DNA from: Glycine soja
Lineage: Eukaryota; Streptophyta; Magnoliopsida; Fabales; Fabaceae
Assembly: GCF_004193775.1 (NCBI RefSeq)
Contig: NC_041007.1
Location: forward strand, 29,600,850-29,664,849
Length of the DNA stretch: 64,000 nt
Reading direction: 5' to 3'
Each line of letters starts with the position of its first letter. Positions within the stretch are counted from its first letter, which is position 1. A program made the translations under genes and the position numbers. The notes below the pieces were generated by a model. It saw only the letters and a program-made list of their open reading frames with translations, searched no databases and was not told the DNA's origin. Positions 1,810 to 62,879 of this stretch are shown in pieces.

Positions 1810-3473
1810 TGTCATACCCTAATTTCGTCCGGGGACCTTTGCTTGATGACATGCGACTTTTGTTTGGTCCTTGTAAGGTGCTTGGCACCCATCATTAGGC
1901 AATTTGTGAAATTCCGGGACATGCCGGAAAACAAAAGAAAATATTGATGCACAATCCGTAAGGTTCCGTGACACACCGGAAATCAAATGGAAGCATCATT
2001 GCACAATTAGTGAGGTTCCGTAACATTCCGTAAGTCAAAAAGGGGATGATTATGTAATCCACAAGGTTCCGTAACATTACGGAAAGAAAACAAGTATCGT
2101 TACGAAATTCGTAAGTTTCCGTAACTTTACGAAAAAAGAATCACAAAAAAAAGCAAAGGGGGTGTACTTAGTAAAAATGGGGGTGCAAATAGCAACCAGG
2201 CCCACTTGGGCCCTCCAGAAGATTCCTCCAGCAGGCTGTTGCTTCTGGAGGAAGCAACCCTGCTCGAGCTCGCCTGGGCGAGCTGGGCAGCAAGCATCTC
2301 CCCTATTTTGCTATAAATAGGGGAGGAAGTGAAGAAGAAAAGGGTTCAGCCCCTTAGGCACTTCTCTCTCTTTCGAATTTGCTTGGAAAAATTGTTTCCG
2401 TGAAGAAAATCTAAGCCGAGGCGCTTCCGAAATGTTTCCGTAACGTTTCCGTGAGGAATTTCGCAAAGGTTTCGACCGTTCTTCGACGTTCTTCATTCGT
2501 TCTTCATCGTTCTTCGATCTTTAACGGGTAAGTACCTCGAACCAAGCTTTTCGATTCATTCTATGTACCCGTAGTGGTCCACATTGTGTTTCGTGTATTT
2601 TTTATTCTCGTTTTATTTACTTTTTATGCCCCCTTTTGACGTGCTTAAGCCATTTTATTTAAGTCATTTCTCACTTAACCTAAAAATAAAATAAATTTCC
2701 ACCGATCGTTTGAATTGTATTATCCATTAACTTCGGTTAAAATGAATTCCGACCGTTCGGTCATGCCATAACCACGTTGGAAATCAAAAAGAGGTAAAAT
2801 AATACTATAAATAATAAAAAATATATACCTTTTAGTAAAATAAAGCGAAAAATCAATTGGACGTTTTCTCTTTGGGATTTCTCATTCTTAATTGAATTGA
2901 CTAATATCTAGGGTGAAACTAAGGCTAAAATCAACTCGCCTAGTCAAGCTCGTCCACAAAAATAAGTTTTTGAAAGTTTATCACTTCAATTTCTTATTAA
3001 GTAAAATGGGTCATTTTTAAGGTCCAACGCCTTAAAATGATCACCTTTCAAGTAAAAAGAATCACTTGATTCACGCATAAGAAAGAACTACGTAGGTCTG
3101 ATTTTCTCATCCCAATTGAGGAATACGTAGGAGCAAAGGGAAACACCCTTGTTGACCACAAAAAGAGAAAAAATATAAAAAGGGTATAAAGGATATAAGG
3201 ACATAAAAGGGAACGTAAAAATCAAAGTCATGTTTGCACATTCGATTAAAGGCTGCCGTCCCTTGTGACGGACGTGTGGGGTGCTAATACCTTCCCCGTG
3301 CGTAAATACAACTCCCGAACCTTTCACTTAAAAGTTCGTAGATCGCGTCTTTTCCGGTTTTTCTGACGTTTTCCTCAAATAAACGTTGGTGGCGACTCCG
3401 CGCGTATTCCTTTCGTGGAACACGCATCCCGCGAGTCTCGCGTCGCCCTCCCGCCGAAGGGTAGGTTGCGACA
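1810..3473 (+). mobile_element. 5' LTR of element A
   Basis: 1664 bp, TG...CA. U3 contains four ~50-bp blocks (about 1893-2150), several centred on a TTCCG...CGGAA inverted repeat. The promoter has a palindrome (2267-2284) and TATA box (2311-2319). The downstream half has the stem-loops at 3011-3040 and 3088-3130. Compared with the 3' LTR it lacks one of two copies of the pre-TATA palindrome. Confidence 0.92.
2267..2319 (+). promoter_or_regulatory. LTR core promoter: CTCGCC/GGCGAG palindrome plus TATA box
   Basis: AGCTCGCCTGGGCGAGCT (2267-2284) is an almost perfect dyad and is followed 27 bp later by CTATAAATA (2311-2319). The same pair at similar spacing recurs in the other Ogre-type LTRs here (40893-40950, 57045-57110, 16050-16120, and near 38620). 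This is probably where element transcription is set up. The palindrome's binding factor is unknown. Confidence 0.7.
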
Positions 3474-3475
3474 GT

Positions 3476-3494
3476 TGGCGACTCCACTGGGGAC
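3476..3494 (+). other. Primer-binding site, tRNA-Arg type (element A)
   Basis: TGGCGACTCCACTGGGGAC begins two bases after the LTR. Its complement fits the 3' acceptor end of a plant tRNA-Arg, the primer known for Ogre elements. It starts minus-strand cDNA synthesis. Confidence 0.75.
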
Positions 3495-4340
3495 TGTTTT
3501 TAGAGAGTTAGGCCATTTAATCTTGCACAATGTTTTACCATGACTTACTCCTTTGTTGGTTTCCCTTTATTATGTTCTTGTGTATATAAACTCTTTGTTG
3601 CTTTTAGTGCGTTTTAAAATGTATGCATGAGGTAAATATTTATTCGTTTGATACACACAAACACCAACACTATTTGCACACACTGTGAGTTGAAAAAGGG
3701 CCCTATACCCGGGTTCATAGGAACATAAGGAGTGGAGGTGAATCTGTGATCATGCTAGGTCTCCGACTTGCTTGATTACAGTGAACCCTCATCTAGAGTT
3801 TTCCTCTTTGAAAACATATTGTTGCTAGTAGTCCCTACTGCTGCTGTATGTTCTTCGAAGGGGATAATACCTCTAGAAACCATCAAGAGAGATATGACTA
3901 CCTTGGGGGTTATCACTAAATGCCTAGTTAGTTCTCTCCCTTATAGGTTCCTTAAATAGGGGCACGGAGCAAATACGCTGCGTGCCATTTTTCACACTGC
4001 CATGCATAAGTATCATATACCCTTTTGCTTATGTTCAGTGAATATTGTCATACTATGTACATTCCCGCATTGCACCTTTTGCATATGCATCGCATATGGG
4101 TTCTGTCTTGATCCCCTCTATAGACAAATCAACGGAGGGTCCGGGTCACCGTTTTAAATACATACGTTGGGGCACTTTGCTACCCCTAGACGTTGTGTCT
4201 AAGAAGGAGACAATGTCCCGGGCACCCGCATTCTTAAATTACATCTGTGTCATATGCATTCCTTCATGCATTCATCCATTCCACCCATGATAGATGTTGG
4301 AGTTTTGATTCGCGCCGATTTTTGTTCACTTTAGTAAAAC
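3495..4340 (+). other. Element A 5' leader
   Basis: Non-coding leader, strongly similar to 42245-43110 in element D and to the reverse leader of element C. A conserved block near 3698-3760 (GGGCCCTATACCCGGG) marks it. It ends at the ATG of ORF1. I see no intact reading frame. Confidence 0.7.
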
Positions 4341-6207
4341 ATGGGATCAAGTCAAATGCCTTTGCTTTAAAAGAGGTTCTATCAAGTTAAGGTCAAGAGC
4401 CTAGGGACCACCAGTCTAAAGGAGTTAGGGCAGTTAATGGGTCAACTCCAGCGACAAGCTTTTCGCAAAGATTACGGTAAAATCTGGGACTTAGCCATGG
4501 TAGAAGTCTCTACATATTGCCTCCCTTGCCCAGTATTATGATCAGCTGATAAGGTGCTTCACATTTGAGGACTTCCAACTAGTGCCGACTATGAAAGAGT
4601 TTGAAGAAATCCTGGGATGCCCACTGGGAGGAAGGAAGCCATATCTTTTCTCTAGGTTCTATCCCTCCACGACAAGAGTTGCCAAGGTAGTGAAAATCTC
4701 AGCACAAGAGTTGGACCGTGTAAAGCAAAACAGGAATGGGGTAGTCGGAGTACCAAGGAAGTGTTTGGAGGAAAGGGCAAAGGCCTTGGCAAATCAAGGC
4801 GAATGGGCTTTCTTTTATTGACATCTTGGCGCTTTTGATCTTTGGAGTTGTCCTCTTTCCGAATACGGAAGGGTTAGTGGACCTAGCAGCGATTGACGCT
4901 TTCCTCGCCTTTCATCATGGCAAGGAAAGCCCGGTCGTCGCCATTTTGGCCATGTATGACACGTTCGACCGGGGATGTGAAAAGAGCAGCGCAAGAATTG
5001 TTTGTTGTGCACTGGCTCTCTATGTGTGGCTGGTTTTGCACCTTTTTCTCCAAGAAGGTAGGCCCGTCTATCCGCTACAAGGTCACCGCTCGTGTGTCGA
5101 AAAAAGAAAGACGAATTGGGACCAACTCTTGGCTAGCATAGAGGGGCATCTGTTAATTGGTTCCCTCGCTAGAAGGAAGGAAGAATCAGGATTCTATCTT
5201 CATGCGAAGGATTTCCAAATGTTCCCTTAATGGGAACAAGGGGTTGTATAAATCATAATCCTGCCCTCACCATAAGACAGCTTGGCTACCCCATGAGAGG
5301 AGTGCCATCAGACGAAAGCATCACGCCTTTCATCGCACGGGGTTTCAGTGACCCCAACGCGAGGGTACTCCAAGGAGTTCGCAAGGCATGGGATGCGGTG
5401 TGAAGAAAGGACAGAGAGCTTAGGGGAAGCAGTAATGGGATCATCGACGGCTATCATAAGTGGCTGAGAGTCTGGACACAAGGATTGGATTGGCTCCCAA
5501 ATCTGAAGACTGTGAGAGACAATGAGGTTAAAGCTTCGGAAGAAAGTGATGAGGTACAAGCCCTAAAGGCAAAGCTTGAAAGAGCCCGGGTAGTCAAAGA
5601 GAAGTTCAAGTCTATAGCCATCAAAGTCTGAAAAGAGTATGATGAACTAAGGGACGTCAATATGGCCACCGATGAAGCCTTGGAATGAGAAACCAAGAAG
5701 GCCCGAAAGGAAGAACACGACCAAAACAAGTTTTGAGGGGCTTTATAGGGCAGCAATAGTGAGCTCAAACTCCGAAGAGGTGAAAGGAATCATCACGGGT
5801 CAAAGGCATGATCTGGAAGGACGAGCTAAAGGCTTGCCTTAGGTCGAAAAGAAATTTGTCCAAACAGTTAAAGTGAGACTGAAGGGAATATGTGGGCCAT
5901 CACCGATGAGTGCAAAGAGAAGCTAAATCTAGCGGCGACTCACGAGCAAAGGCTAGAGGATGAGTACGCCAAGATATCAGCAGAAAGGGAAGCAAGGGAA
6001 AGGGTAATTGATTCATTGCACCAAGAGGCAGCAATGAGGATGGACCGATTTGCTCTTACTTTGAATAGGAGTCAAGAACTTCCCCGATTGTTAGCCAAGG
6101 CTAAGGCAATGGCGGACACCTACTCCGCCCCCGAGGAGATCCACAGACTTCTCAGCTATTGTCAGCATATGATAGACTTAATGGACTATATGATTAGAAA
6201 CCGCTAG
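4341..6207 (+). pseudogene. Ogre-type ORF1 (protein of unknown function), broken
   Basis: Tat/Ogre elements carry an extra ORF between the 5' LTR and gag; its role is not known. This copy starts at ATG 4341 (MGSSQMP) and can be followed for about 620 codons through several frames. Recognisable stretches are the EEILGCPLGGRKPYLFS region (4582-4820), a middle part rich in Leu/Ala (4826-5230), and a charged, probably coiled-coil C-terminus (5890-6207, ending MIRNR). I recall related soybean proteins annotated with DUF7745, but could not check. In-frame stops include an early TAA in LL*KRF, and TGA codons near 5631, 5687 and 5733 that look like CGA to TGA changes. A conserved 5' part also occurs at 43111-43578 and on the reverse strand at 36857-37561. 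Confidence 0.8.
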
Positions 6208-7370
6208 GAAGTTTGTATTGTCGCTCAGATCTTGACTAGTTATAACTTTTTGAATAAAATGAGTTTATCCCACGTTTTTACTCCAAAAATCAGTGCGAAT
6301 CAAGTCACTCCCGCATTTTATCTCTAGCATGCATTGTATGTTGGTCTCGTCCTTTGTCACGGGAAGCCGGAAGGTCCATATCACCTTCTTAATTGTACAC
6401 ATGGGGCACTGCGCCCCCAAATACGCAAGTAAGAAGAGATAATTTTTCGGGCTCTCGTGTCCATAAAATGCATTCATAACATGCATCGCATAAGCATCTC
6501 TTCATAACATCATAATGAACATATCGTTCCTGCATTTGTCCGTTATCATATTCCAGCCTCACATTTTGCATGAATCATGGCATCATCATGCATATGCGTT
6601 CAACAAACTTTTTGATCTGCAAAATTGCATACCATTTGTTTTCATGTTTGCTCATCCTTGCGTTTTCCTCTACAAAACAAAAACAAAAAAGGGGAAGCGT
6701 GAAAACTTCACACTACATTCTTAGTTGCATGTGTTAGGCACCATGAGCCAACCATGTTGGGATCATAAACCCATTTCTAAAAAAAAAAACACACAACAAC
6801 AAAACAAAATAACTGAACATGGTACCTAATGCATGGTTAACTAAGAAAGGATGTTTCTTCGGGCATCTCAATTTCATAATTACATTTTCTGTGCATAAGC
6901 TTAAAGTATGCCCGAGTCATTCATCCCTATGAGATGTTGTTGAAGTATTGGCGATCAGAATTGCCATTCCTTGGATTATAGGGTTGAACCAAGCTCATGC
7001 TTTTACAAAAAGGTTCATCAAGTCAAGTTGAAATATGGAAGTAACCGTCTTGCAAAATTGGGGCAAAAGATGAATCGAGTCACATCACTGCTTCGTCTAC
7101 TGCCAAACATATTTAGGATTGTTGATGTCCTTGTTACTTCCAGTTTCACCTTGACAAAGATGTCATGGACCATGTTGAAAATCTAAATTGATTCAACCCC
7201 ATATCCTGCGTAAAAATTCGCAATACTTCAATTGTACATCATTCGCATGCATCCATGCTTTTCATTGGTTGCATTGCTCATTGCATTCTTTCCTTGAAAA
7301 ATAAAATAAAATAAAATAAAATGAACTTAATCATTGTTATCAAAAAGAAAAGGGCACGCTTTACGGCGCC
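6208..7370 (+). other. Spacer between ORF1 and gag
   Basis: About 1.16 kb of non-coding AT-rich sequence. Parts near 6300-6490 resemble the main leader (around 4100-4280), as if a leader unit were duplicated in front of gag. An ATAAA-type short repeat lies at 7300-7320. No credible gene is present. Confidence 0.6.
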
Positions 7371-9050
7371 CTTACCGAACTCGTGCTAGAGCTAGAGTAA
7401 TGGGTGAAGTAGAGAAGGTGCAAGAGTAGATGAAGGCCGACATGGAGGCCATGAAAGAGCAAATGGCCACAATGATGGAGGCCATAATAAGCATGAAAAA
7501 GATAAGGGAAGTCGATATGGTTGCAGTTGCCGCTACCAACGCTGTTGCTAAGGTGAACCCGATGCCCCCATCTGGCCTCAACCAAATGAATCATCCAACC
7601 TCAAATATGGTAGGCAAAGATTTGGGAAGTACGAACGACCCCATGATGTGAAAATTCAAAACGAGCACGCCTTCCCATCATATGGCTTGCCTCCCAACTA
7701 TACACCACCCAATGTGGCATACACTCTCAATGAAAATCTCAATAACTCCACTCCGATACTCATTGAGAACCAATAACCTCAATCTGATCAGGCACATATC
7801 TTTCAAACCATGGGGGAGACACATGAAATTCCCCACCACAATCTAGCCGACTTCGAGCCTTGGCTCGGATATGCCACTGAAGGGCAAGCAGTTGGTGGTA
7901 TACCCCTACAAAACACTTTGGAGGGCCCTCAGTGTCACCCACAACCACAACCCTCACATTCCACAGCGGTTAAAAACCCTCATGCTATGGCAGAAATGGG
8001 AAAGAGGAAAGGCTTAGGGCCATTGAAGGAGGTAAAGATTATGCCTTTCCTAACCTAGAAGAGTTGTTCCTAGTACCCAATATCATCACCCCTCCCAAGT
8101 TCAAGGTGCTGGACTTTGACAAGTACAAGGGGACTACTTGCCCCAAGAACCATCCAAAGATGTATTGTCGGAAGATAAGGGCATACGCAAAGATGAGGAG
8201 TTGCTAATACATTTCTTCCAAGAAAGTCTTACTGGGGTAGCTGTTACCTGGTACACTAACTTGGAACCTTCCCGAGTCCATACTTGGAAGGACCTAATGG
8301 TTGCCTTCGTTAGGCAGTATCAGTACTATTCTGATATGGTTCCGGATAGGATGCAACTACAGAACATGTGCAAAAAGGGAGACGATAATCGTGATGGTAG
8401 ACACATTATCGGTACTCTACTATTAAAAGATGGTGGGCTATGCACCCTCAAAGCTTTGCAGATTTGGTCTTCGCCAGTGAAAGGATCAATGTGGGTCCGA
8501 AAAGAGGCAAATTTGATCATCCTACTAGGACGACTGAGAAAACTGGGGCAAATAAAGAGGGTGAGAAAGAGGGAGAAACCCATGTTGTGACTGCCATTCC
8601 TATACGGCCAAGTTTCCCACCAAACCCAACAATGTCATTTCTCAGTCAATAACAAACCTCCTCCTTATACACCACCCAGTTATCCACAAAGGCCATCCCT
8701 AAATCAACCACAAAGCCTGTCTACCGCACTTCCAATGACGAAGACCACCTTTAGCACAAACCAAAAAACACCAACAAAAAGGAATTTTGCAGCAAAAAGC
8801 CTGTAGGGTTCACCCCAAATTCCGTTGTCTTATGCTAAACTTGATCCCATATCCACTCGATAATTCAATGGTAGCCATAACCCCAACCAAGGTTCCTCAA
8901 CCTCCATTTTTCTGAGGATACGACTTGAACACAACGTGTGCTTATCATGGAGGAGCCCCGGGGCATTTCATTGAGCATTGTATGACCCCGAAGCATAAAG
9001 TGTGAAGTCTAATTGATACGGGCTGGCTGAAATTTGAGGAGAATCGCTTA
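7371..9050 (+). pseudogene. gag of element A, degenerate
   Basis: Capsid/nucleocapsid remnant. The N-terminal part (about 7385-7650) begins in an RTRARARVMGEVEK context with a Met-rich helix. The retrotransposon gag core follows in 8080-8360 (YKGTTCPKNHPKMYC, then FFQESLTGVAVTWYTNLEPSR). A zinc-knuckle-like CAYHGGAPGHFIEHC lies near 8937-8985. Several stops and frame changes break it (stops near 7426, 7650, 8058 and 9003). It is clearly homologous to the gag of element D at 43748-44910 but more decayed. Nothing of pol follows. Confidence 0.8.
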
Positions 9051-9518
9051 TTGAATCCTAACATTGACAAGCAACACCATACATGGGGCAATTTTCGAAG
9101 CTGTTGTTATGACTCATCAGGATTTTCAAGTTTATGCCATTATTATAAACCACAGTTACAATGCTAAATGATATGGATAAAATGGACATCCTTGTCTCTC
9201 TCATCCTCTCACAAACACATCTTTGCTTATTCAACTTCCACCGGAATGTGAGTATAAGCCATTGGTCTATTTGCTCAAGCAACCTGCACTCTTGAGTGTT
9301 GACTTCCAAGACCGTTCAATCAGAGATTACTCATCTTGCACATTGGCGGGGGTGTCGTAAAACGACGAGTAAAGTAAAAAAAAAAAGAAAAAAAAAAGAA
9401 AAAAGAGGGGGCATTTGATTGACTGTGTTTTCAAGTAAAAATATAGACGTTCATGTGACTTCATTTTATCATTCCGGAAAGTTTGTCTTCTTAGAGAAGC
9501 GAGTTGTCAAGAATAGGA
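9051..9518 (+). other. Post-gag remnant of element A
   Basis: No open frame is recognisable. It holds an A-rich run at 9375-9405. This is the point where protease and pol would be expected, so the pol deletion junction probably lies between here and 10569. Confidence 0.5.
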
Positions 9519-10563
9519 TGTTGGACAAATGGCCTCAGTTATATTAAGAAAGGGGGGGTTGAATTAAGATGCAAAGACTATTCCCCAATTGAACTATCAC
9601 TCTTTCTTTTTGGATTAACAATGCACCCTTAACATGAATTACTCAAAAGACAATTCAAAATAAACTTCTTTAAAGAAAAAGATAAATAGCAATAAATAAA
9701 AGAAGTTTAAAGGAAGAGAGGAATACAAACTTGATTGATACTGGTTCAGCCACTTCCCGCGCTTACGTCCAGTCCTCAAGCAACCCACTTGAGATTTTCC
9801 ACTCTCTTTGTAAAACTCCTTTTACAAAGTCTGAACCACACAGGGACAACCCTTCCCTTGTGTTTAGGAATCCTCTACAACGAGAGACCCACGGTCTCTT
9901 AATCCCTTTTCAAAAATAAGAAGAAGAGAAGAAGAGATCTCTCTTAAAAGAGATAGCTTGTACAATGAAGATCAATCAAAATTCCTTATTGAATATGAAA
10001 GTGGTTGACCAAGGAATCTTTTTGAGAGGATAAGACATTTCAGTTCAGAAAAACTCTTAATCTTTTGAGAGGATAAAACTTTTTGGGCAATGAAAACTCT
10101 CTTTAAATTCGTGTTTCCAAGTCACCTTTGATGGCCATTCATAAACCATTTGAATAGATGTGACTCTTGGAAATTATTTTCTGAAAATCTCCTCTAGTAA
10201 TCGATTACAAGACTTGTGTAATCGATCACAGGCTTTAAAATTTGAATAAACTGCTGGTAATCAATTACCATCCATGTGTAATCGATTACACATTATAAAT
10301 TTTGAATTCAAATTTCTAGTGACTATTATAAACATTTTCAGCTGCTGGTAATTGATTACCAGAGAGTAAATCTCAATTTAAAATGATTTAGATAGAATTC
10401 TTTGGCCAAACCTTTTGCTTTTTCAATTTGGAAACTTCTTCCTAAGATTCTAGAGATCAACTTGATCATATATCTTGATTTTCTTGGATTCTTGGATTCT
10501 TGTCTTGAATAAAACTTGGAAGCACTTGATCCTTTGGCATCATCAAAACATCTTGCTTCTACA
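9519..10563 (+). mobile_element. Solo LTR, SIRE-like Ty1/copia, inside element A
   Basis: It begins TGTTGGACAAATGG and ends CTTCTACA, with near-matching 5-bp flanks tagga (9514-9518) and taaga (10564-10568). A second copy of the family lies at 60728-61832. Both share the CACTTCCCGCGCTTACGTCC-type block and repeated palindromic TAATCGATTA motifs (10190-10300). Family assignment to SIRE/Maximus is from memory of soybean LTRs and is less certain than the solo-LTR call. Confidence 0.65.
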
Positions 10564-10639
10564 TAAGAGTCATTTGACTTAATCCATCAAAAAATCCTTC
10601 AACTATTTCTCGTCCTTGGAAAAATTCTTTTTGCAAGAA

Positions 10640-10925
10640 TCAACTGCTTCTTTCATTCTTCCTCACTACGAGGCTATGAAAACAAGACAATGATGGTTAC
10701 CTCATAGCCCTACACTGGGGCAATGAAAGGCACCATGCATAAACCTCAAGCGAACCTAAGGGCAGATTAGAAGTTCTCACCCAATAGGTTCCCTCCTACA
10801 AGGTCATGACGAAAGACAACGATTGGTACCTCAAAGCCTTACACTGGGGCAATGAGGGGCACCGTGCATGAGCCTCAAGTGAACCTAGGGGCCGATCAAA
10901 AGTTCTCACCCATCGATGTTTTTAA
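10640..10925 (+). repeat. 129-bp tandem duplication in element A
   Basis: Two diverged copies, each with ACACTGGGGCAATGA and a GTTCTCACCCA end. The ACACTGGGGC anchors at 10712 and 10841 give the period. The rest of 10564-11418 is non-coding, with a short poly-A run near 11132. Confidence 0.7.
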
Positions 10926-11418
10926 CAAAAAAAAAGGGGGGACAAACCATAGGATTTCAATGGATTGATTAAACATCAAACGACTCCATTGCCGTCACTC
11001 CAAAATGGTCAAATGACTAAATCAAACAGAACACATATTCTGAGGGAGTTCTCGGAGAGATTTGCAAAAGATAGGATAAGGTTGCATGGACTATCACCTC
11101 TTTCAAAAGGACAGTCAATTTGTGTTTTCCAAAAAAAAAAAAAAATCAAATCAAAATCAAAATCACAAAATAGGAAAAAATGTCATGAACATTGTAGAAC
11201 TTTCCATTACATTGCATTGTTTCATATGAAGTCCGCATTTACCAAATTTCACGACAAAGGTTGCATGCATTTGCATCCCTAAAAATCATGTTAACTGCAT
11301 AGATTTCCTACATCTAATGTCCAAATCTTGTGGATTTGGGATGACCGGCCTTCTCGATGAGTCGATTTCTTGCTTTCTCATAAGGGTGGACCCTTGGGTA
11401 CTTGTACCTATCGCCTTT

Positions 11419-11802
11419 AGAGGACTACACATCCTCGCCTTCAGAGGACTGCACGTCCTCACCTTGAGAGGACTACACGTCCTCGCCTTTAGAGGACTAC
11501 ACGTCCTCGCCAAAAGAGGGCTGTACGCCCTCACCTTGAGAGGACTACACGTCTTCGCCAACAGAGGGTTGCACGCCCTCACCTTGAGAGGACTACACGT
11601 CCTCGCCAACAGAGGGTTGTACGCCCTCACCTTGAGAGGACTACACGTCCTCTCCAACAGAGGGCTGCACGCCCTCACCTCCAGAGGACTACACATCCTC
11701 GCCTTGAGAGGGCTCCACGCCCTCACCTTTAGAGGGCTACGTGTCCTCATTTTCAGTGTGCTCCACATCCACACCTTAAGAGAATTTAAGGTCCTCTGTC
11801 CT
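11419..11802 (+). repeat. 24-bp minisatellite of hairpin units
   Basis: About 16 units of 24 bp. Each core unit contains two 6-base arms around a 5-base loop: GAGGAC...GTCCTC or GAGGGC...GCCCTC. Arms usually match within a unit, and alternate units form a 48-bp dimer in the middle. The period is a multiple of three, so both strands stay open for 162 codons, but the products are only repetitive (RGLHVLTL-like and CSPLKVRA-like) and are unlikely to be genes. Confidence 0.9.
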
Positions 11803-11829
11803 TAAATGCTTAACAGAGACTTGCACTCC

Positions 11830-12712
11830 CGGTTAAGGGACCAATAGTTTCCTTTTAACGGTTCCTGGGCCACCCCCTAATATTGGAGGAGGGCCAACTG
11901 TGCGAATACAACCAGAGAGGGAGGCTATCACACAGCTACTATGCATACCGGGGCAAGATTTCACCCGTGCCGCTGCAAAGAGACGAGTGCGGATCATGCG
12001 CACCAACATGACCACTCTTACACATATATAGATGACATTGCTACTTAGCAACATTCTGCCCAGCGACCGCAATGTCAATCTCCCCCTGCAAAAGTATCAG
12101 TTGGTCTGTGTCGTCCCGACATGGGTAAGTATGCATATGGTTCAACTGATTTCTGATACCATCTATTTTGCAGGGATCGCACCCACAAAGACACCCAGTG
12201 GACCTGAAGAAGTCCAACAGGGCCCTGGGGTTTCCAGCTCTGGTTACGGGCCTCTATCAGTCCTACAGGGTGCCCGTACCCCCCCGGCAAGGTCACGTCA
12301 TCATAGGTAAGTATGCACATCGCTCAACTGATTTCTGATTTCATCTATTGTTTGCAGGGATCGCGACTGCAAGACACCTAGTGGACCCAAAGAAGTCCAA
12401 CAGGGTCTTGGAGTTGTCAAGCTCTAATTACGGGTCTCTGTCAGTTCTACGGAGTACCTGTCACCTCCAGCAAGGGCATCAGGCCCCCTACTAACCGGGC
12501 TTTCATCAAGAAGTACTGCGTCTCCAGGCAGGCGCAGGGCGAAACACCACAGCAGCCTGGGGATGGCCGGTAGCGGGCAATAGACGCACCACCGCCACCT
12601 GTAGAGTTCACCTCTGCTCATCCACAAAAAGGTTTGAGTATTGCCTACACCACATGGCCGACCAGCAGGCTACCAAGTCCAAAGCCAAAGATAAGCAAAA
12701 GTGCTAGGTCCG
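11830..12712 (+). pseudogene. 3' extra ORF of element A, degenerate and internally duplicated
   Basis: Remnant of the accessory ORF seen better in element D at 52425-53674. Recognisable segments are GQDFTRAAAKRRVRIMRTNMTTL near 11958-12028, LLLSNILPSDRN (12035-12070) and the YxFAGIAP region. The stretch 12122-12310 is repeated in diverged form at 12307-12490. A stop ends the first segment at TAG 12029-12031. The function is unknown; I recall the family as a 'putative plant transposon protein' domain (PF20167-like), not verified. Confidence 0.7.
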
Positions 12713-12894
12713 TGACCAACAAGCCATCAAGCGTCCAGCTCAAGACGTTAAAGAAGCGCTACTAGGAGGCAACCTAGTAACTTTTAAATTTCTGCTTGCT
12801 ATTTGATCACCTTTTGTTTCTCAAGTCATATTGGGACACACCTAGTTGCTCATGATCCTAAGAATTTAAATAAAACGAGCACAAGCTCGGAAGG

Positions 12895-13200
12895 TAGTCA
12901 TACCTCACAAAATATATGTATGCGTGTTTAGGTAGTGAAAAATACCTTAGATATGCATGTATGTAATTTAGGTAGCAAACAACTACCTCACAAAATATAT
13001 ATGTATGTTTAGGTAGCAAGATACCTTAGATATGCATGTATGTAGCAAAAAGATACCTCACAAAATATATATATGTATGTTTAGGTAGCAAGATACCTTG
13101 GATATGCATGTATATAGCAAAAATACCTCACAAAAATATACACATGTTTAGGTAGCAAGATACCTTGGATATGCATGTATATAGCAAAATACCTCATGAA
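12895..13200 (+). repeat. ~70-bp tandem repeat (TAGGTAGCAAGATACCT units)
   Basis: Four to five units start TACCTCACAAAATATAT at about 12901, 12983, 13054 and 13123, and TACCTCATG at 13189; periods shrink from 82 to 66 bp. Units contain GGTAGCAAGATACC, an inverted GGTA/TACC pair. It is followed by A-rich sequence to 13275. Confidence 0.8.
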
Positions 13201-13785
13201 AAAAAGGAAAAAAAAAACAAATGAGAAAAAGAAATGAACAAATGAAAAAACAAAAAAGAAAGAAAAAAAAATAAGTTGTCTAGCTGAAAAACCAACATGC
13301 TTTTGAAAAGAGATGACTTCCAACTTTTCTTTGAAAAAAAATTCGCTGATCATAGCTAGTTTTTGAAAAACAATGTGTGTACACCCGAAGGGTGAACGCT
13401 GTGAAATTTCCCCGGACGCCCGAAATGGACTCGAATGAATGCACAAATTGATAAAAGAACATATTTTGGAAACATTGGGTTGATTTAAAATACAGGAAAT
13501 GAATCCTGAGCCCTAGCATCACATGACCATAAAAATTTGACACTTGAGTGTCCGCATAGGTGCATGCATGACCAGTTTTGCATAAAATTTCCAAATCATC
13601 ATTTTTGCATTTGTGTCATGGAAATAATGTGGGGCATCCCTTTTATCCTTGAGCCAAACCAAACCCCGACATGTATCATGTCTATCCATTCTACAAGCCT
13701 TGAGCCAAAATCCTGACTCACCATAAACCTTGACCCAGGGTGAGAATGTCAATCCTTACCCTCGAAAGCAAAAAAAGAAAAGAAA
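13201..13785 (+). other. Element A 3' region, non-coding
   Basis: This matches the equivalent part of element D (about 53930-54470) in order and wording, e.g. AACATGCTTTTGAAAAGAGA near 13288. No gene is visible. It is conserved enough between A and D to suggest a functional 3' untranslated region. Confidence 0.6.
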
Positions 13786-13975
13786 GGAAATTCCCAATCA
13801 AAGAGTGGGAGAAAGCAAAAAGAAAAGAAAGGAAATTCCCAATCAAAGAGTGGGAGAGAGAAAAAAGAAAAGAAAGGAAATTCCCAATCAAAGAATGGGA
13901 GAAAGTAAAAAAAAAAGAAGTAAAAGGAAGGAAAGAAAGCTCCTGATCAAGGATCGAAAGAAATCAGAAGAAATG
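13786..13975 (+). repeat. 45-bp purine-rich tandem repeat
   Basis: GGAAATTCCCAATCAAAG starts at 13786, 13831 and 13876, with a diverged fourth unit near 13930. Each unit has a short hairpin (TCCCA...TGGGA). The counterpart in element D lies at 54470-54590, where one unit reads TCCCGAT...ATCGGAA. Confidence 0.8.
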
Positions 13976-14608
13976 TGCAGAAAGGTCTTTGGACCAGACA
14001 ATATCTGAACAGTACAGAATTGTCACCAAATAAACAAAAAAGGGAAAGGGAACCACGACCTGAAAGTGGTCTTCTCCCTTCGATTACCAACCAAAATCCT
14101 GTGCGTCGGTGACTTGTCCGCCTCGTGCAAAACAAAAACAGAAAAGAAAAAAAAGCCAGAAAAAAAATCATCAAAAGCAAAAAAAAACCACCAAAAAAAC
14201 CCATTCCCAAGGGAAGTCCTATTGATCCATGATCACGCATGTAATTTTTGATTTGATAGGAAATAATTTGCAAAGTCAAGTCATGACATATCTATCGTTC
14301 GGAATTAGGATGAAACACTTACCTGTGCGAGATTGATACACTTTGAGTGATTTTCTTCTATTTTTGTCGAACCCGGTGTTTCCTCTAAATGGTCATTTAG
14401 AAACGAAATGCTAAACATCCAAAATCTCATTTGTGGTTATGAGAAAATTTCATCAGCAGATTCTCCTTCCCCGATAGACACATTGTTTTTTGTCCGAAAA
14501 GCATATGTTGATCTGATTAGTTGGAAGTTTTATCTCTTTACTAAAGCACGTTCGCATTTTAGCGAAGAAAACATCAAGACTATTTCTAGTCTCACAAGTT
14601 ATCCAGAA

Positions 14609-14898
14609 CTATGTAGGTCTGAGTTCCTCATTGGAGGATACGTAGGAGCAAGAGCCTCGCTTTTGTCGACCACACCACCTTTTGTTGCCATGACCCAAGA
14701 GCTGGTAACCCGCGGAGACACCTTACAGTTATCCGCACCTCGTCATTCAGTGACCCCAAGTGTGATTGGTGAGCAGAGGCCAATGTGGTCATCTGTGCCC
14801 TTTCCGGAGATGTCAGCATCTTCCGGTGGAGACTTTTTCATGTCTCACAAGTTATCTAGAACTACGTAGGTCTGAGTTCCTCATTGGAGGATACGTAG
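14609..14898 (+). repeat. Two TACGTAG double-stem hairpins in element A 3' region
   Basis: Copies at 14609-14645 and 14862-14898. Each has outer arms CTACGTA/TACGTAG (the first copy CTATGTA, a G-T pair) and inner arms TCCTC/GAGGA. The same motif is present in the LTRs at 3088-3130 and 16878-16920. Between them, 14646-14860 is non-coding. Confidence 0.75.
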
Positions 14899-14938
14899 GA
14901 GCAAGAGCCTTGCTTTTGTCGGCCGCCCCACAATCTCT

Positions 14939-15530
14939 GTCATACTGACCCTGAGGTCATGTGACGTGCGGAGACAAAATTTGGTCATTCCGCACCCCTT
15001 TGCCATTCAGACACAGTCGTGTCCGATGGCACGCAGAGACAAATTATGGTCATTCTGCACCCTTTTGTCATCCAGAGGCGGCGGGCCCGATGACATGCAG
15101 AGACAAATTATGGTCATTCTGCACCCTTTTGTCATCCAGAGGCGACGGGCCCGATGACATGCGGAGACAAAATTTGGTCATTCCGCACCCCTTTGCCATT
15201 CAGACACAGTTGTGCCCGATGGCACGCAGAGACAAATTATGGTCATTCTACACCCTTCGTCAATCGCGGCCGACAAGCCCGTTGACACGCGGAGATTTAC
15301 ATCATCTTCCACACTCACAAGATCTGTCATACTGACTTTTGAGTCACGCTGACGGGCGGAAATACCCGAGTGGTTATCCGTATAAACATTCTTTTGCTAT
15401 TTGTAAGACAGAACGCTTGATAGCAGGCAGAGACTGACACCGTCTTCTGCACCTTTTGTTCCCCCGGGAACAACGAGTCATTTGCATGCGGAAATTTTAT
15501 GGTCACCCGCGACTCTCGTCAACCGAGAGG
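14939..15530 (+). repeat. Alternating stem-loop array upstream of the 3' LTR (element A)
   Basis: An almost uninterrupted chain of about 18 short hairpins in partly tandem ~64-bp units. Examples: GTGCGGA 14966-14972 with TCCGCAC 14989-14995; TGTCATC 15066-15072 with GATGACA 15089-15095; TGCAGA 15096-15101 with TCTGCA 15118-15123; TGCGGA 15160-15165 with TCCGCA 15182-15187; TTGTTCCC 15456-15463 with GGGAACAA 15466-15473; CTCTCG 15513-15518 with CGAGAG 15524-15529. Arms differ between units but stay complementary. There is no coding potential. Element D has a related 263-bp array at 55295-56083. Confidence 0.85.
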
Positions 15531-15548
15531 AACGAAATTAGTGTCTTA

Positions 15549-15593
15549 TCTTTACTTTCCTTTTATCTCCAATAAAAGACAAGTAAAGAGGGG
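15549..15593 (+). promoter_or_regulatory. Polypurine tract with adjoining conserved hairpin (element A)
   Basis: TCTTTACTT (15549-15557) pairs with AAGTAAAGA (15581-15589), and CTTTTAT (15560-15566) with ATAAAAG (15572-15578), leaving loop CTCCA. The right arm is the start of the polypurine tract AAAGAGGGG that primes plus-strand synthesis just before the LTR at 15598. The same architecture is at 19435-19475 and 56595-56636. Confidence 0.8.
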
Positions 15594-15597
15594 CAAC

Positions 15598-17263
15598 TGT
15601 CATACCCTAATTTCGTCCAGGGACCTTTGCTTGATGACATGCGACTTTTGTTTGGTCCTTGTAAGGTGCTTGGCACCCATCATTAGGCAATTTGTGAAAT
15701 TCTGGGACATGCCGGAAAACAAAAGAAAATATTGATGCACAATCCGTAAGGTTTCGTGACACACCGGAAATCAAATGGAAGCATCGTTGCACAATTAGTG
15801 AGGTTCCGTAACATTCCGTAAGTCAAAAAAGGGATGATTATGTAATCCACAAGGTTCCGTAACATTACGGAAAGAAAACAAGTATCGTTACGAAATTCGT
15901 AAGTTTCCGTAACTTTATGAAAAAAGAATCACCAAAAAAAGCAGAGGGGGTGTACATAGTAAAAATGGGGGTGCAAATAGCAACCAGGCCCACTTGGGCC
16001 CTCCAGAAGATTCCTCCAGAAGGTTGTTGCTTCTGGAGGAAGCAACCCTGCTCGCCTGGGCGAGCTCAGCTCGCCTGGGCGAGCTGGGCAGCAAGCATCT
16101 CCCCTATTTTGCTATAAATAGGGGAGGAAGTGAAGAAGAAAAGGGTTCAGCCCCTTAGGCACTTCTCTCTCTTTCGAATTTGCTTGGAAAAATTGTTTCC
16201 GTGAAGAAAATCTAAGCCGAGGCGCTTCCAAAACGTTTCCGTGAGGAATTTCGCAAAGGTTTCGACCGTTCTTCGACGTTCTTCATTCGTTCTTCATCGT
16301 TCTTCGATCTTCAACGGGTAAGTACCTCGAACCAAGCTTTTCGATTCATTCTATGTACCCGTAGTGGTCCACATTGTGTTTCGTGTATTTTTTATTCTCG
16401 TTTTATTTACTTTTTATACCCCCTTTTGACGTGCTTAAGCCATTTTATTTAAGTCATTTCTCGCTTAACCTAAAAATAAAATAAATTTCCACCGATCGTT
16501 TGAATTGTATTATCCATTAACTTCGGTTAAAATGAATTCCGACCGTTCGGTCGTGCCGTAACCACGTTGGAAATCAAAAAGAGGTAAAATAATAATATAA
16601 ATAATAAAAAATATATACCTTTTAGTAAAATAAAGCGAAAAATCAATTGGACGTTTTCTCTTTGGGATTTCTCATTCTTAATCGAATTGACTAATAACTA
16701 AGGTGAAACTAAGGCTAAAATCAACTCGCCTAGTCAAGCTCGTCCACAAAAATAGGTTTTTGAAAGTTTATCACTTCAATTTCTTATTAAGTAAAATGGG
16801 TCATTTTTAAGGTCCAACGCCTTAAAATGATCACCTTTCAAGTAAAAAGAATCACTTGATTCACGCATAAGAAAGAACTACGTAGGTCTGATTTTCTCAT
16901 CCCAATTGAGGAATACGTAGGAGCAAAGGGAAACACCCTTGTCGACCACAAAAAGAGAAAAAATATAAAAAGGGTATAAAGGATATAAGGACATAAAAGG
17001 GAACGTAAAAATCAAAGTCATGTTTGCACATTCGATTAAAGGCTGCCGTCCCTTGTGACGGACGTGTGGGGTGCTAATACCTTCCTCGTGCGTAAATACA
17101 ACTCCTGAACCTTTCACTTAAATGTTCGTAGATCGCGTCTTTTCTGGTTTTTCCGACGTTTTCCTCAAATAAACATTGGTGGCGACTCCGCGCGTATTCC
17201 TTTCGTGGAACACGCATCCCGCGAGTCTCGCGTCGCCCTCCCGCCGAAGGGTAGGTTGCGACA
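15598..17263 (+). mobile_element. 3' LTR of element A
   Basis: 1666 bp and about 98 percent like the 5' LTR. It has two copies of the CTCGCC/GGCGAG dyad (16050-16065 and 16068-16085) before the TATA box at 16112-16120. It ends GGTTGCGACA followed by target duplicate cttag. Confidence 0.92.
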
Positions 17264-18199: not shown

Positions 18200-19145
18200 G
18201 TTCATGATGCCCACGAATTGATTGCCTAGCGCTGTTCATGCATCCTCCACCATCAAATCTTATTCGGAGCCCCATGAATTGATTGTCATTCTTGCATCCT
18301 CCACCATCGAGTCCGGAGCCCCACGAATTGATTGCCTAGCGCTGTATGTGCATCCTCCACCATCAAATCTTATTCGGAGCCCCATGAATTGATTGCCATT
18401 CATGCATCCTCCACCATCAAGTCCGGAGCTCCACGAATTCATTGCCTAGCGCTGTTCGTGCATCCTCCACCATCAAATCTTATTCGGAGCCCCATGAATT
18501 GATTGCCATTCATGCATCCTCCACCATCGAATCCGGAGCCCCACGAATTGATTGCCTAGCGCTGTTTGTGCATCCTCCACCATCAAATCTTATTCGGAGC
18601 CCCATGAATTAAGTGTCGTTCATGCATCCTCCACCATCGAGTCCGGAGCCCCACGAATTGATTGCCTAGCGCTGTTCGTGCATCCTCCACCATCAAATCT
18701 AATTCAGAGCCCCATGAATTGATTTCCATTCATGCATCCTCCACCATCGAGTCCGGAGCCCCACGAATTGATTGCCTAGTGCTGTTCTTGCATCCTCCAC
18801 CATCAAATCTTATTCGAAGCCCCATGAATTGATTGCCATTCATGCATCCTTCACCATCGAGTCCGGAGCCCCACGAATTGATTGGCTAGCGTTGTTCGTG
18901 CATCCTCCACCATCAAGTCCGGAGCCCCACGAATTGATTGCCTAGTGCTGTTCGTGCATCCTCCACCATCAAATCTTATTCGGAGCCCCATGAATTGATT
19001 CTCATTCATGCATCCTCCTCCATCGAGTCCGGAGCCCCACGAATTGATTGCCTAGCACTGTTCGTGCATCCTCCACCATCAAATCTTATTCGGAGCCCCA
19101 TGAATTGATTGCCTAGCGCTGTTCATGCATCCTCCGTTATCAAGT
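18200..19145 (+). repeat. 110-bp minisatellite (two ~55-bp half-units)
   Basis: ATTGCCTAGC anchors recur at 18221, 18331, 18441, 18551, 18661 and 18771, with the variant ATTGGCTAGC at 18881, all exactly 110 bp apart; then half-unit steps occur at 18937 and 19108. Each unit is two related halves (one with CATCAAATCTTATTC, one with CATCGAGTCCGGAG). Units are highly similar, so the array is young or homogenised. There is no credible gene. Confidence 0.92.
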
Positions 19146-29089: not shown

Positions 29090-31038
29090 TCAAAAGTTAT
29101 GGCCGTTTGAATTTCCCCAATGCTTTCATGTTAAATTTGGAGCGTCTCAATATATTATGTTCTTGAATCGGACATGCGAGTCAAAGTTATGGCCTTTTAA
29201 ATTTTCCTTGTGCTTCCTTATTGAATTCCTAGCATCTTGATATATTATGGGCCTGAATCGGACATCCGAGTCAAAAGTAATGACCATTTGAGTTTTCCTG
29301 ATTATTTTGTGTTCAATTTTGGGCGTCTCGATATATCATGAGTCTCAATCCAACATCCGAGTCAAAATTAATGGTTGTTTTAATTTGCCCAGAGCTTCCG
29401 TGTTCAATTTTGAGCGTCTAGATATATCATGGGCCTCAATCATACATCCAAGTCAAAAGTAATAGTTGTTTGAATTTGCCCAGGGATTCCGTGTTCAATT
29501 TTGAGTGTCTCGATATATTATGGTTCTCAAGCGAACATACGAGTCTAATGTTATGTCCGTTTGAATTTGCCCAGAGCTTTCATGTTCATTGTGGATCATT
29601 TCGATACATTATTGGCCTAAATCAGATATCCGAGTCAAAAGTTATTGCCGTTTGAATTTGCCTTGGGCTTCCATGTTCAATTTCTAGCATCTCAATATAT
29701 TATGGGCCTAAATCAGACATCCAAGTCAAAATTTATGGCCATTTGAATTTTCCTAGAGCTTTCGTGTTCAATTTCAAACTTCTTGATATATCATGGGTCT
29801 CAATCATACATCCGAGTCAAAAGTAACGGTCGTTTGAATTTTCCTAGAGCTTCTGTGTTCAATTTTGAGCATCTCAATATATCATGGGCCTCAATCATAC
29901 ATCTGACTCAAAAGTAAGGGCAGTTTGAATTTTACTCGTGGATTCCATTTAAATTTTGAGCGTCTCGATATATTATGGTTCTCAACCAGACTTCCAAGTC
30001 AAAAGTTATGACTATTTGAATTTGCCATGGGTTTCCTCATTCAAGTTTAGGTGTCTCGATAAATTATGCTTCTCAAGTGGACATCCGAGTCAAAAGCTAT
30101 GGCGGTTTGAATTTTCCTTGAGATTCTATGTTGAATTTCGAGCATCTCGATATATTGTGGTTCTCAAGCCGGCATCCAACTCAAAAGTTATGGTTGTTTA
30201 AATTTTATTAAGAGTTTTCGTGTTCAATTCCAAGAGTATTGATGTATCATGGTCCTCTATCATACATCCGAGTCAAAACTAATTGTCGTTTGAATTTGCC
30301 CGGGGATTGCATGTTCAATTTTGAGTGTTTCAATATACTATGGTTCTTAAGCGGACATCCGAGTCAAAAGTTATAGCCGTTTGAATTTGCCAGGAGCTTT
30401 CATGTTCAATTTCGAGTGTCTAGAAATATTGTGGGCCGCCATCGAACAGTCGAGTCAAAAGTTATGGTCATTTTGAATTTGCCTAGTGCTTTTGTTTTCA
30501 ATTTGGAGCGTCATGATATATTATGGGCCTGGATCGAACATCTGAGTCAGAAGTTATGGTCGTTTTGAATTTTCTTGGGGCTTCCTTGTTCAATTTCTAG
30601 CATCTCGATATATTATGGGCCTCAATTATACATATGAGTCAAAAGTGATTATCGTTTGAATTTTCCAGGGGATTCCATGTTCAATTTTACGTGTCTCGAT
30701 AAATTATGATTCCCAGGCGGACATCTGAATCGAAAGTTATAGCCATTTGAATTTTCTCGAGGATTCCCTATTAAATTTTGAGCGTCTCAATACATGTGGT
30801 TCTCAAGTTGTCATCCAACTCAAAAGTTATGCCCGTTGGAATTTGTCAGGAGTTTTGGTGTTCAATGTTGGTGTCTCAATATATTATAGACCTGAATTGT
30901 ACATTCGAGCCAAAAGATATGAGTGTTTGTATTTCCTTGGGGATTCCATGTTCAATTTCAAGCGTGACGATATATTATGATTCTCAAGCGGGCATTCAAG
31001 TCAAAAGTTGTGGCTGTTTGAATTTGCATTGGGTTTCC
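29090..31038 (+). repeat. CentGm-like ~91-bp satellite, array 1
   Basis: About 21 diverged monomers. Anchors such as CAAAAGTTATGG occur every ~91 bp (ends near 29100, 29190, 29280, 29370). Each monomer has the words TTTGAATTT, TTCAATTT, CGTCTCGATATATTATG and GACATCCGAGTC. I recognise these from the soybean centromeric satellites CentGm-1/-2 (92 and 91 bp). High divergence suggests the array is outside the active, homogenised core. Confidence 0.88.
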
Positions 31039-32477
31039 TGTTCGACCAGAATACTTGTTTACTCTCTCTTCCAAATTGGTATTACTTGTTTTTATATGGG
31101 AGTGGTCTTACCAACAAGCGCACTGGGTCGCCAAGTAAAATAATTAAAACAGAATGAACCGAGTATCGAACACAGGGAACTTGTTCATTTAGCAAAGTTT
31201 TGTTAAGTAAGCAGACACTTGCAAAAAGAAATTAATGATTGTGAATTAAAGCAAAAGTATTTTCTATCCTAGGTTAAAGCAATAAATGAGAACAAGTAAG
31301 TGTGAAAACAAATATCTAAAGGCGTTGGGTCCTCCTACTGAGTAAGTTGATGCAATTAAAGATGTTCCTGTGTTCTATGCTGAGGACAAAAATACCAAAC
31401 ATCGATTCCTCCAGAGTTTGGACTAATTTAAATCAAACTTCATTCGCAAATCCCTCTTGTTGAACTTAGCCTAATTTAAATAGCATTATACTCATAGTAT
31501 AATAAAGAAAACTAAAACCCTGCACACTATCCCTAGCAATGCAGTTATTTAGTCCCTGCTCTATCAAGTTCTAAGGAAACAGTACATTTCCCAATGCTAA
31601 AGTCCCTAACAACACACACAAATGGGTGATCAAGCCACAAGTATGCATACAATAAGCATAGATAGAAGCAGTGAACACATAAAACAACCTTAATTAGATA
31701 TGAAAAAGAGTTTACATCAACTACTCAATAAGAATCCCCAACTGTGGGTTTTAGCCTTTCATGACAAGGAAGCTCCTTTTACACTGAAGAAGAGGAATCA
31801 AGAGTAATTGCTTGCTTACAAAGGAGTGGCGATGTCTCCTCCACCTCTAGGACTCTCACAATCACTCAAAAACTCACTAATCTCCCTAAAAGATGAAAAC
31901 TTGGCCCCTTGCTCTGCTCTATGCTCTCTGAAATTCACACTCTTTAGGCCTCTCGGTAGTGAATAGTTCTCGTCCCTCTTGGCTCCCTCAATTCTATGCA
32001 AATCAGGCTTAAAAAGGGCTTCATGATCTTGACGTTGTGCTTGGCGCCATTCTTGCGGTTAGCGCGAGTAAGTGAATTTGAGCTTAGCGCTAATCTCGCG
32101 CTAAGCCTAGAAAGCGACAGATGACTCGCTTAGCGAGCTGATAATGCGCTAAGCGTGTGCTTGCATAGCAGATGCCTTTCCAGATTCCCTTTTACTCGCT
32201 AAGTGCGCTGGTGCTGGGCTTAGCCGTTGATGCACACTAAGCGCATTGAGCTCGCTTAGCGCGATGACTCCTTTGGCACTTCTTCAAAATAACTCCTTTT
32301 TGCCTGAAATTAAAGAAAATTTAAAATTAATTCCATGTAAAGAGGCTTCTACTGAGCATAGATCAAAACAAAGCAATTTTATTTACAATCCTACCAAAAA
32401 GAACCATAAATTGGGAGATTTATATACAATTTGGAAAACTTTTCTATACAAAAGTTAGTCGTAAACGACGACTAACA
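31039..32477. mobile_element. 1.44-kb solo LTR of unidentified family, inside satellite
   Basis: TGTTCGACCAG...CGACTAACA, with perfect 5-bp duplication tttcc (31034-31038 and 32478-32482). It carries a cluster of GCTTAGCG/CGCTAAGC words (32045-32270), several palindromic. TG...CA ends, size and target duplication indicate a solo LTR, but I cannot name the family or orientation. Confidence 0.75.
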
Positions 32478-32482
32478 TTTCC

Positions 32483-35400: not shown

Positions 35401-36856
35401 TAGTCAAACATCCGAGTTAAAAGCTATGGCTGTTTGAATATCCCAAGAACTTTTGAATATCCGAGTCAAAAGTTATGGCCATTTGAATTTGTCATGGGCT
35501 TCCTTGTTCAATTTCTAGCCTCTCGATATAATATAGGTCTAAATCGAATATCTGAGTCAAAAGTTATGGCCGTTTGAATTTGTCCAGAGTTTTCGTGTTC
35601 AATTTCAAACGTCTCGATATACCATTGGCCTTAATCACACATCCGAGTCAAAAGTAATGGCCACTTGAATTTGCCCGTGGATTCCATTTTAAATTACGAG
35701 TGCCTTGATATATTATGGTTCTCAAGCGGGCATCTGATATATTTTGGACCTCAATTGTACATCCAAGTCAAAAGTTGTGGCTGTTTGAAATTGCATGGGC
35801 CTTCCTTATTATGTTTTGAGCGTCTCGATATGTTATAGGCCTCGATTAGATATCCGAGTCAAAAGTAATGCTCGTTTGAATTTGCATGTGGATTCCATGT
35901 TCAATTTAGAGGATCTCGATATATTATGGTTCTCAAGCGAACATCCAAGTAAAAAAATAGGCCATTTGAATTTCTTATGGGCTTCCTTGTTAAATTTCTA
36001 GCCTCTTGATATAATATGGGCCTAAATAGACATCTGAGTCAAAAGTTATGGCCGTTTGAATTTGCCTTGGGCTTCCTTGTTCAATTTCTAGCATCTCGAT
36101 ATTATGGACCTTAATTGAACATCAAAGTTAAAAGTTTTGGCCATTTGAATTTGCCCAGAGCTTTCGTGTTCAATTTCGAGCGTCTCTATATATCATGGCG
36201 TCAATCATACATATGAGTCAAAAGTGATGGCCATTTGATTTTTCCCGGGGATTCCATGTTGAATTTCAAGTGTCTCAATATATTATGGTTTTGAAGCAAA
36301 CATTTGAGTAAAAAGTTTTGGCTGTTTGAATTTTCCAAGAGTTTCTATGTTCAATGTCGAGTGTCTCGATATATCATGTGCTTCAATCATACATTCGAAT
36401 AAAAAATAAGGGTCATTTGAATTTTCCTGGGGATTCCCTGTTCAATTCTGAGTGTCTCAATATATTATGGTTCTCAAGCAGTCATCCTTTTATGACCGTT
36501 TGAATTTGCCAAGAGCTTTCATGTTCATTTTGGAGCATCTTGATATATTATGGGCTGGAATCGAACATCCGTGTCAAAAGTTATGGCCGCTTAAATTTGC
36601 CTTGGGCTTCTTTGTTCAATTTCTACCATCTTGATACATTATGGGCTTTAATTGGACATTCAAGTCAAAAGTTATGGCCGTTTGAATTTTCCTAAAGGTT
36701 TCGTGATCAATTCTGAGCATCCTAATATGTCATGGACCTCATGCATACATCTGAGTCAAAAGTAATGGTTGCTTGAATTTGCCCAGAGATTCCATATTAA
36801 ATTCTGAGCGTCTAGATATCTAATGGTTCTCAAGCGGACATCCGAGTCAAAAGGTG
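32483..36856 (+). repeat. CentGm-like ~91-bp satellite, array 2
   Basis: Direct continuation of array 1 after the solo LTR, about 48 monomers in the same orientation. It is irregular around 35160-35460 and 35720, where monomers are shortened or spliced. It ends abruptly at 36856 at the truncated element C. ORFs across this stretch are by-products of the repeat. Confidence 0.88.
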
Positions 36857-62715: not shown

Positions 62716-62879
62716 TCCAAGCAAGGCTGAATTTAAGTTCTGGTTTAGTATTTCAAATTCTATGTGAATGTTCATCTTCTTGTTCAATCCTATTTTTGAT
62801 TTTCATGATTATGAATGTGCTTAGGATTAGAAAAGAATTAGGTTATGGATTCATTTCCTAATTTCAAATTTAATCACAA
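62716..62879. other. Short unassigned spacer in satellite
   Basis: About 160 bp of AT-rich sequence with no satellite match and no ORF; it separates reverse from forward monomers. Confidence 0.4.

Follow-up and report, generated by a model that had tools for sequence, protein, structure and literature searches.

A tandem chain of two alternating hairpins before the 3' long terminal repeat of a Gmr9/GmOgre-type element in Glycine soja

The two elements and their hairpin arrays

The window analysed, a 64,000-nt stretch of a Glycine soja genome of 1.01 Gb in 1119 contigs, contained two retrotransposons with long terminal repeats (LTRs), designated element A and the second element. Each carried, shortly before its 3' LTR, a tandem chain in which two types of hairpin, designated B and A, alternated. 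Taken together, the arms of these hairpins changed in a complementary manner, and the array may well be an RNA structure of the element transcript. Positions in the window were as follows:

1810 to 3473, + strand: 5' LTR of element A (blastn against the 3' LTR; first letters TGTCATACC; CTTAG immediately before)
14609 to 14645, + strand: hairpin module, first copy (CTATGTAGG..TACGTAG; direct reading)
14682 to 14798, + strand: diverged upstream units (unit 14682-14737 and A hairpin 14772-14798), outside the span first annotated
14862 to 14898, + strand: hairpin module, second copy (CTACGTAGG..TACGTAG; direct reading and fold)
14938 to 15451, + strand: main chain of eight B+A units with 0 nt between B and A (unit coordinates; span-limited fold)
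15096 to 15123, + strand: A hairpin with TGCAGA/TCTGCA (direct reading)
15160 to 15187, + strand: A hairpin with TGCGGA/TCCGCA, co-varying sister of 15096-15123 (direct reading)
15457 to 15512, + strand: final diverged unit, a GTTCC/GGAAC hairpin followed by A hairpin 15487-15512 (fold, coordinates)
15513 to 15529, + strand: closing hairpin CTCTCG/CGAGAG (span-limited fold)
15549 to 15589, + strand: hairpin with 18-nt arms, the 3' arm of which enters a purine run, probably the polypurine tract, beside the LTR (inverted repeat)
15598 to 17263, + strand: 3' LTR of element A (blastn; CTTAG follows)
55214 to 55256: hairpin module, further copy upstream of the array of the second element
55296 to 56265, + strand: chain of the second element (15 B+A units; higher-order repeat of 263 bp)

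The LTRs of element A shared 96.8% identity (30 mismatches in 1680 aligned columns, blastn), and CTTAG flanked the element on both sides as a perfect 5-bp duplicate. A Pfam search of the interior (3474-15597), run on 10 of the 23 open frames of at least 75 aa, matched DUF7745 in two frames and Retrotrans_gag in one, with no match for the other seven. When eight pieces of the open reading frames (ORFs) of the second element were used as tblastn queries, the pieces of ORF1, gag and the last ORF found matches in element A; no match at E ≤ 1e-3 was obtained for the reverse transcriptase (RT), RNase H and two integrase pieces, nor for a 521-aa ORF between gag and RT that was provisionally labelled protease and had no Pfam match itself. 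Own pol genes, expected of an Ogre-type element, were not detected in element A by tblastn or in the ten frames searched with Pfam, and the element has the appearance of a large non-autonomous relative.

The second element gave matches above the Pfam cut-offs for DUF7745, Retrotrans_gag, RVT_1, RVT_3 and Integrase_H2C2, which include RT and RNase H-like domains and the zinc-binding domain of integrase, with an integrase core match falling below the cut-off. A 347-aa ORF (PF20167) preceded its hairpin array, and its 3' LTR began at 56645; a long-armed hairpin overlapping a purine run, similar to that at 15549-15589, was also observed just before this position. The element had the layout of an Ogre-type (Tat) element, namely an extra ORF upstream of gag, gag-pol, a further ORF and a long 3' region, in which DUF7745 probably corresponds to the Ogre ORF1. 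Open frames of 93 and 126 codons (14876-15154 and 14955-15332) spanned the array of element A, and others of 77 and 102 codons spanned the end of that of the second element; these frames are probably fortuitous, given that 3 does not divide most of the unit lengths.

Each unit consisted of a hairpin B of 29-31 nt, with a stem similar to TGYCAT/ATGRCA, directly followed by a hairpin A of 26-29 nt with the stem GCRGA/TCYGC and, in many units, an inner GAC/GTC, after which a spacer led to the next B. The window held 24 B+A units, delimited by the analyst with a 1-base shift for the first, in which all 24 B hairpins abutted an A and the gaps from A to the next B were 5, 6, 11 or 12 nt. The arms quoted in the first-pass annotation were found as written, TGCAGA..TCTGCA and TGCGGA..TCCGCA for the two A hairpins listed above, and TGCCAT..ATGGCA (15001-15031 and 15194-15224) versus TGTCATC..GATGACA (15066-15095 and 15130-15159) for hairpin B. 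The array of element A extended beyond the span annotated at first, occupying 14682-15512; its first unit is weak evidence, the B stem having been registered by eye and the span-limited fold pairing that stretch differently.

When 60 loci of the same genome were scanned for the arm sequences, with pairing left out of the score, 943 units at distinct positions were obtained, and single loci held between 9 and 56 of them. Among 853 gaps shorter than 40 nt between units, 583 were of 5-7 nt, 247 of 10-12 nt and 23 of other lengths. The number of units thus varied among loci, while the order of the hairpins and the two spacer classes were retained. On the opposite strand a single match was found in the 60 loci (at L060), and 20 shuffled loci gave none.

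One further locus, L077, was reached via the neighbouring hairpin module and contained 22 units, 11 of them distinct, with periods of 63 and 64 in alternation and one exception; one entire B hairpin was letter-identical between this locus and element A. As a marker of arrays the module was rejected, since only one (L077) of the eight places fetched led into one. A one-letter variant of it occurred at 22,470 places in the genome with at most one mismatch, the backward control giving 0, and pattern scans of viral and genome contig collections, from which close relatives are possibly absent, gave no matches.

An array of this kind is in print for soybean. Gmr9/GmOgre elements carry five interleaved minisatellite families, A to E, in 63,841 copies, for which no function is known (Mogil, Slowikowski and Laten 2012, PMC3305785). 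Like these minisatellites, the hairpin chain lay between the coding region and the 3' LTR in the same kind of element and followed the order [ABAC]n. The published lengths of repeats A (26 bp), B (38 bp) and C (37 bp) add up to 64 and 63, the periods of L077, and periods of 63-65 were found in the main array of element A, an agreement of lengths and not of letters. By length alone, the published repeat A would correspond to the core of hairpin B described here, and the published B and C to hairpin A plus spacer. The units of the second element were more diverged. Judged by its place, size and order, the hairpin chain is the [ABAC]n minisatellite of Gmr9/GmOgre, and the repeat is not new. The first-pass remark that no report of such an array was known applies to its folding, for which no report was found among the literature matches listed or in the main text of PMC3305785; hairpins, covariation and RNA structure are not mentioned in that text, which treats the repeats as DNA.

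Folding and covariation of the stems

The stretch 14939-15530 folded with z -4.89 as RNA and z -5.55 as DNA, and in either mode none of 100 shuffles was equally stable. With pairs limited to 45 nt, the array of element A folded with z -6.85 and its sister in the second element (55290-56279) with z -9.0, and the span-limited minimum-energy folds recovered 18 of 20 named hairpins in element A and 23 of 30 in the second element. A and B hairpins, including stems and loops, spanned 487 of the 592 bases of 14939-15530; the first-pass wording that nearly every base could be placed in hairpins was too strong, as 57% of the bases were paired in the span-limited fold compared with 52% ± 3% in 200 shuffles, the excess being one of stability and not of the share paired. 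Across the genome, the last 600 nt of the array had z of -3 or lower at 49 of 49 places, some of which overlap, with a mean of -6.8, and the mean for the 5' flank was -1.4 (n = 44). Since other regions of the window were as structured or more so, such as 15976-16125 in the LTR (z -11.1) and 11551-11700 (z -8.9), strong folding alone cannot single out the array. The former, inside the 3' LTR of element A, gave the strongest fold among 852 scanned stretches of 150 nt, and its 5' LTR counterpart at 2176-2325 gave z -4.2. No Rfam family reached its gathering score anywhere in the window.

Covariation was examined first among the units of the window and then among those of the larger set, pair A1 at the foot of the stem, paired in 12 of the 24 window units, having been dropped before the counts. 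In the window, 243 of 264 cells (24 units by 11 stem pairs) were paired versus 170 ± 15 under a tree null that lets columns change along the unit tree independently of one another, and 33 cells were double-changed versus 11.4 under this null (p 0.0025), most of the signal being carried by the seven pairs of the B stem (p 0.005). For the larger set, the 943 units gave 886 usable ones and 653 distinct haplotypes, 57 having been dropped for lengths outside 29-31 nt for B or 26-29 nt for A; with eleven loci added, 1191 units gave 1116 usable and 855 distinct, 75 being dropped on the same limits. Arms were anchored by position because whole-unit alignment by MAFFT misplaced some 3' arms.

With 653 haplotypes, the score for complementary double changes ranked pairs A4, B3, B4 and B6 at 2, 4, 5 and 7 among 1176 column pairs, and its mean over the 13 stem pairs was 0.113 compared with 0.006-0.032 when the stems were slid by 1 to 5 positions, the 13-pair sum being reached in none of 1000 tree-null simulations. 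With 855 haplotypes the same four pairs ranked 2, 3, 6 and 4 among 1431, the score over the 13 pairs was 0.115 versus 0.008-0.026 for slides of 1 to 3, and none of 400 simulations reached the observed value; taken singly, four of the 13 pairs (B3, B4, B6 and A4) had p < 0.05 for double changes and eight for pairing. A regular exchange of pairs was also seen in the 22 units of L077, with pair B2 being A-T in 11, G-C in nine and A-C in two, and pair A4 being A-T in 11, G-C in ten and G-T in one.

To separate constraint from decay, changes were classed as private when seen in one 20-kb place and as shared when seen in three or more. The private changes should be mostly decay after insertion and the shared ones should come largely from the time when the elements moved. 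In the 1191-unit set, transversions made up 193 of 596 private stem changes (32%) versus 21 of 168 shared ones (12%, p 1.1e-7), whereas in the other columns of the unit they made up 229 of 611 (37%) and 82 of 217 (38%), respectively (p 0.94). The smaller set behaved alike, with 139 of 417 private and 20 of 132 shared in stems, and 142 of 359 and 58 of 150 elsewhere. Changes at exactly two places were dropped (transversions 18 of 94 in stems, 29 of 100 in other columns). Among changes starting from a Watson-Crick pair, 1 of the 308 private ones and 6 of the 81 shared ones were double Watson-Crick changes, and the rate of change per column showed a weak contrast (p 0.051).

As to the strand, folding of the sense RNA predicts that G.T is tolerated and A.C is not. 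In the window, 52 G.T and 13 A.C were counted in 312 cells, and among unit types G.T occurred at three to seven distinct combinations of pair and state versus one or two for A.C, depending on the clustering cut.

Dimerisation by loop-loop (kissing-loop) contacts was rejected, since 6-nt loop palindromes were rarer than in shuffled loops: a self-complementary stretch of at least 6 bases was present in a fraction of 0.16 of 300 distinct B loops (0.23 when shuffled) and 0.10 of 168 distinct A loops (0.19 when shuffled).

Possible function and alternative explanations

The stretch is best explained as a hairpin array in the untranslated 3' part of a retrotransposon of the Gmr9/GmOgre type (Tat/Ogre, Ty3-gypsy), and it may well serve the full-length transcript as a cis-acting RNA structure present in many copies. 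Constraint would have acted on the sense RNA during the active period of the elements, from which such a role of the array would follow. In view of the co-change of the arms, a repeat hitherto described only as a DNA minisatellite may be kept because its RNA folds.

A number of results weigh against this interpretation. The window units used to train the scan had pairing arms, which may bias it towards units of this type. The first-pass annotation took the paired changes as the product of selection for base pairing and proposed R-scape or a similar program as the check; in an R-scape-like test on the 653 haplotypes (G-test with average product correction (APC) and tree null), no column pair had E < 0.05, the best stem pair having E 0.75 in 150 simulations and the best stem pairs ranking 3, 10, 15 and 30 among 1176, so that the first-pass interpretation is partly supported, by the aggregate of double changes and the transversion-poor stems, but by no single pair under G-test and APC, and no more than four of 13 pairs reached p < 0.05 in the double-change test. 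In the window, the A stem alone was weak (double-changed cells, p 0.077), and in the large set pairs B2, B5, A3, A5 and A7 were nearly without double change; the alternation at L077 reflects one or two old events and not 22. The aggregate covariation signal is real but rests on few deep changes, and four pairs account for most of it. The unit tree is built from about 57 bases, stem columns included, and would be blurred by exchange between units, and the private and shared classes depend on it. The 3' flank of the arrays, mostly LTR, also folded strongly (mean z -4.7, n = 48). Concerning the strand, G.T was not in excess of A.C among tree events (109 versus 96 private, 33 versus 32 shared), and sense and antisense arrays folded alike, the sense being better in 26 of 49. 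The wobble counts conflict as to whether RNA or DNA is the folding molecule, and we lean to RNA.

The tree events and the equal folding of both strands, together with the DNA fold of z -5.55, speak for pairing at the level of DNA, with no selection on RNA: either cruciform or hairpin DNA would be kept, or the arms, being quasi-palindromic, would be matched to each other by template switching in the course of replication or reverse transcription. We regard this as unlikely: correction of arms was scarce among the private changes, as seen from the double Watson-Crick changes, and by itself it gives no reason for the shortage of transversions in shared stem changes, while the combinations of pair and state among unit types favoured G.T over A.C.

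It is likewise improbable that the array is a neutral minisatellite, in which slippage or strand transfer expands hairpin-forming units and palindromy merely aids expansion, of no use to the element. The wide variation in unit number and the further hairpin-rich tandem arrays in element A (11419-11802 and 12901-13196) agree with such an origin, but the shortage of transversions in shared changes was confined to the stems and absent from the rest of the unit, and the two-hairpin order and spacer classes persisted across loci. Hypervariable tandem repeats of the 3' untranslated region (UTR) in Ogre/Tat elements of other legumes were reportedly described by Macas in 2009. PMC7004042 describes 3'-region tandem repeats as hypervariable in the Tat lineage, which also speaks for neutrality, and as a known source of plant satellite DNA; the present array resembles those of other legumes in position and tandem nature. 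The main text of PMC7004042 makes no mention of hairpin, palindrome, stem-loop, dyad or secondary structure, and that of PMC9659126 none of hairpin, palindrome or secondary structure.

The array hairpins might also act as templates or decoys in small-RNA pathways. Hairpin RNA repeated so many times could serve as a substrate, and nothing more direct pointed to such a role, which is very improbable given that plant Dicer enzymes cut stems longer than those of the array.

If the array is a cis-acting structure of the sense RNA, its most likely role is in the handling of the genomic RNA, with export, packaging and stability all being candidates. The hairpins would provide many weak binding sites that act jointly in the export of the unspliced, intron-containing transcript or in its packaging, and gain or loss of whole units would change the dose and leave the signal intact. 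By analogy, export is our first guess, because the genomic RNA of Ogre must carry an intron and animal LTR elements have export signals in the form of cis-acting RNA structures. According to a 2025 review (PMC12786077), Ogre elements contain introns, the mouse IAP RTE and musD MTE are NXF1-dependent RNA transport elements, and direct studies of how plants export the RNA of LTR elements are lacking. The present array would resemble RTE and MTE in being a putative cis-acting RNA structure of an LTR retrotransposon, theirs exporting full-length RNA, and it differs from them in being a tandem chain of simple hairpins with a putative function. Although neither RT nor integrase was detected in element A, the chain is retained there; this fits a cis-acting element, but one case proves nothing.

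A more specific and rather doubtful proposal is that of a polymeric RNA signal at the 3' end of a plant retrotransposon transcript. Its two-hairpin modules, repeated in tandem tens of times, would be under selection for their structure, with the number of units setting the dose, and would serve export or packaging of unspliced genomic RNA, including that of relatives lacking pol. In that case the soybean minisatellite, with its tens of thousands of copies, would be what an RNA device has left behind in the genome. More generally, if the repeats are structured RNA signals, a plant LTR retrotransposon would have in them an RNA element that acts in cis, and the question of their function would become testable.

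Other repeats in the window

A second tandem hairpin array was observed in element A at 11419-11802, with 24-bp units, the stem GAGGRC/GYCCTC and a loop that was mostly TRCAC. A-T and G-C alternated at one of its pairs, one unit had GTG/CAC, and 11400-11800 folded with z -8.7. It lay within a 191-codon open frame, which may be due to chance because the 24-bp period is a multiple of 3. Long arrays of a 91-bp repeat, which resembles the soybean centromeric satellite, were located at 29090-36853 and 59773-63972, largely on opposite strands from each other, and a 110-bp tandem array was located at 18210-19135, with 92% matches between copies over 18210-18942.
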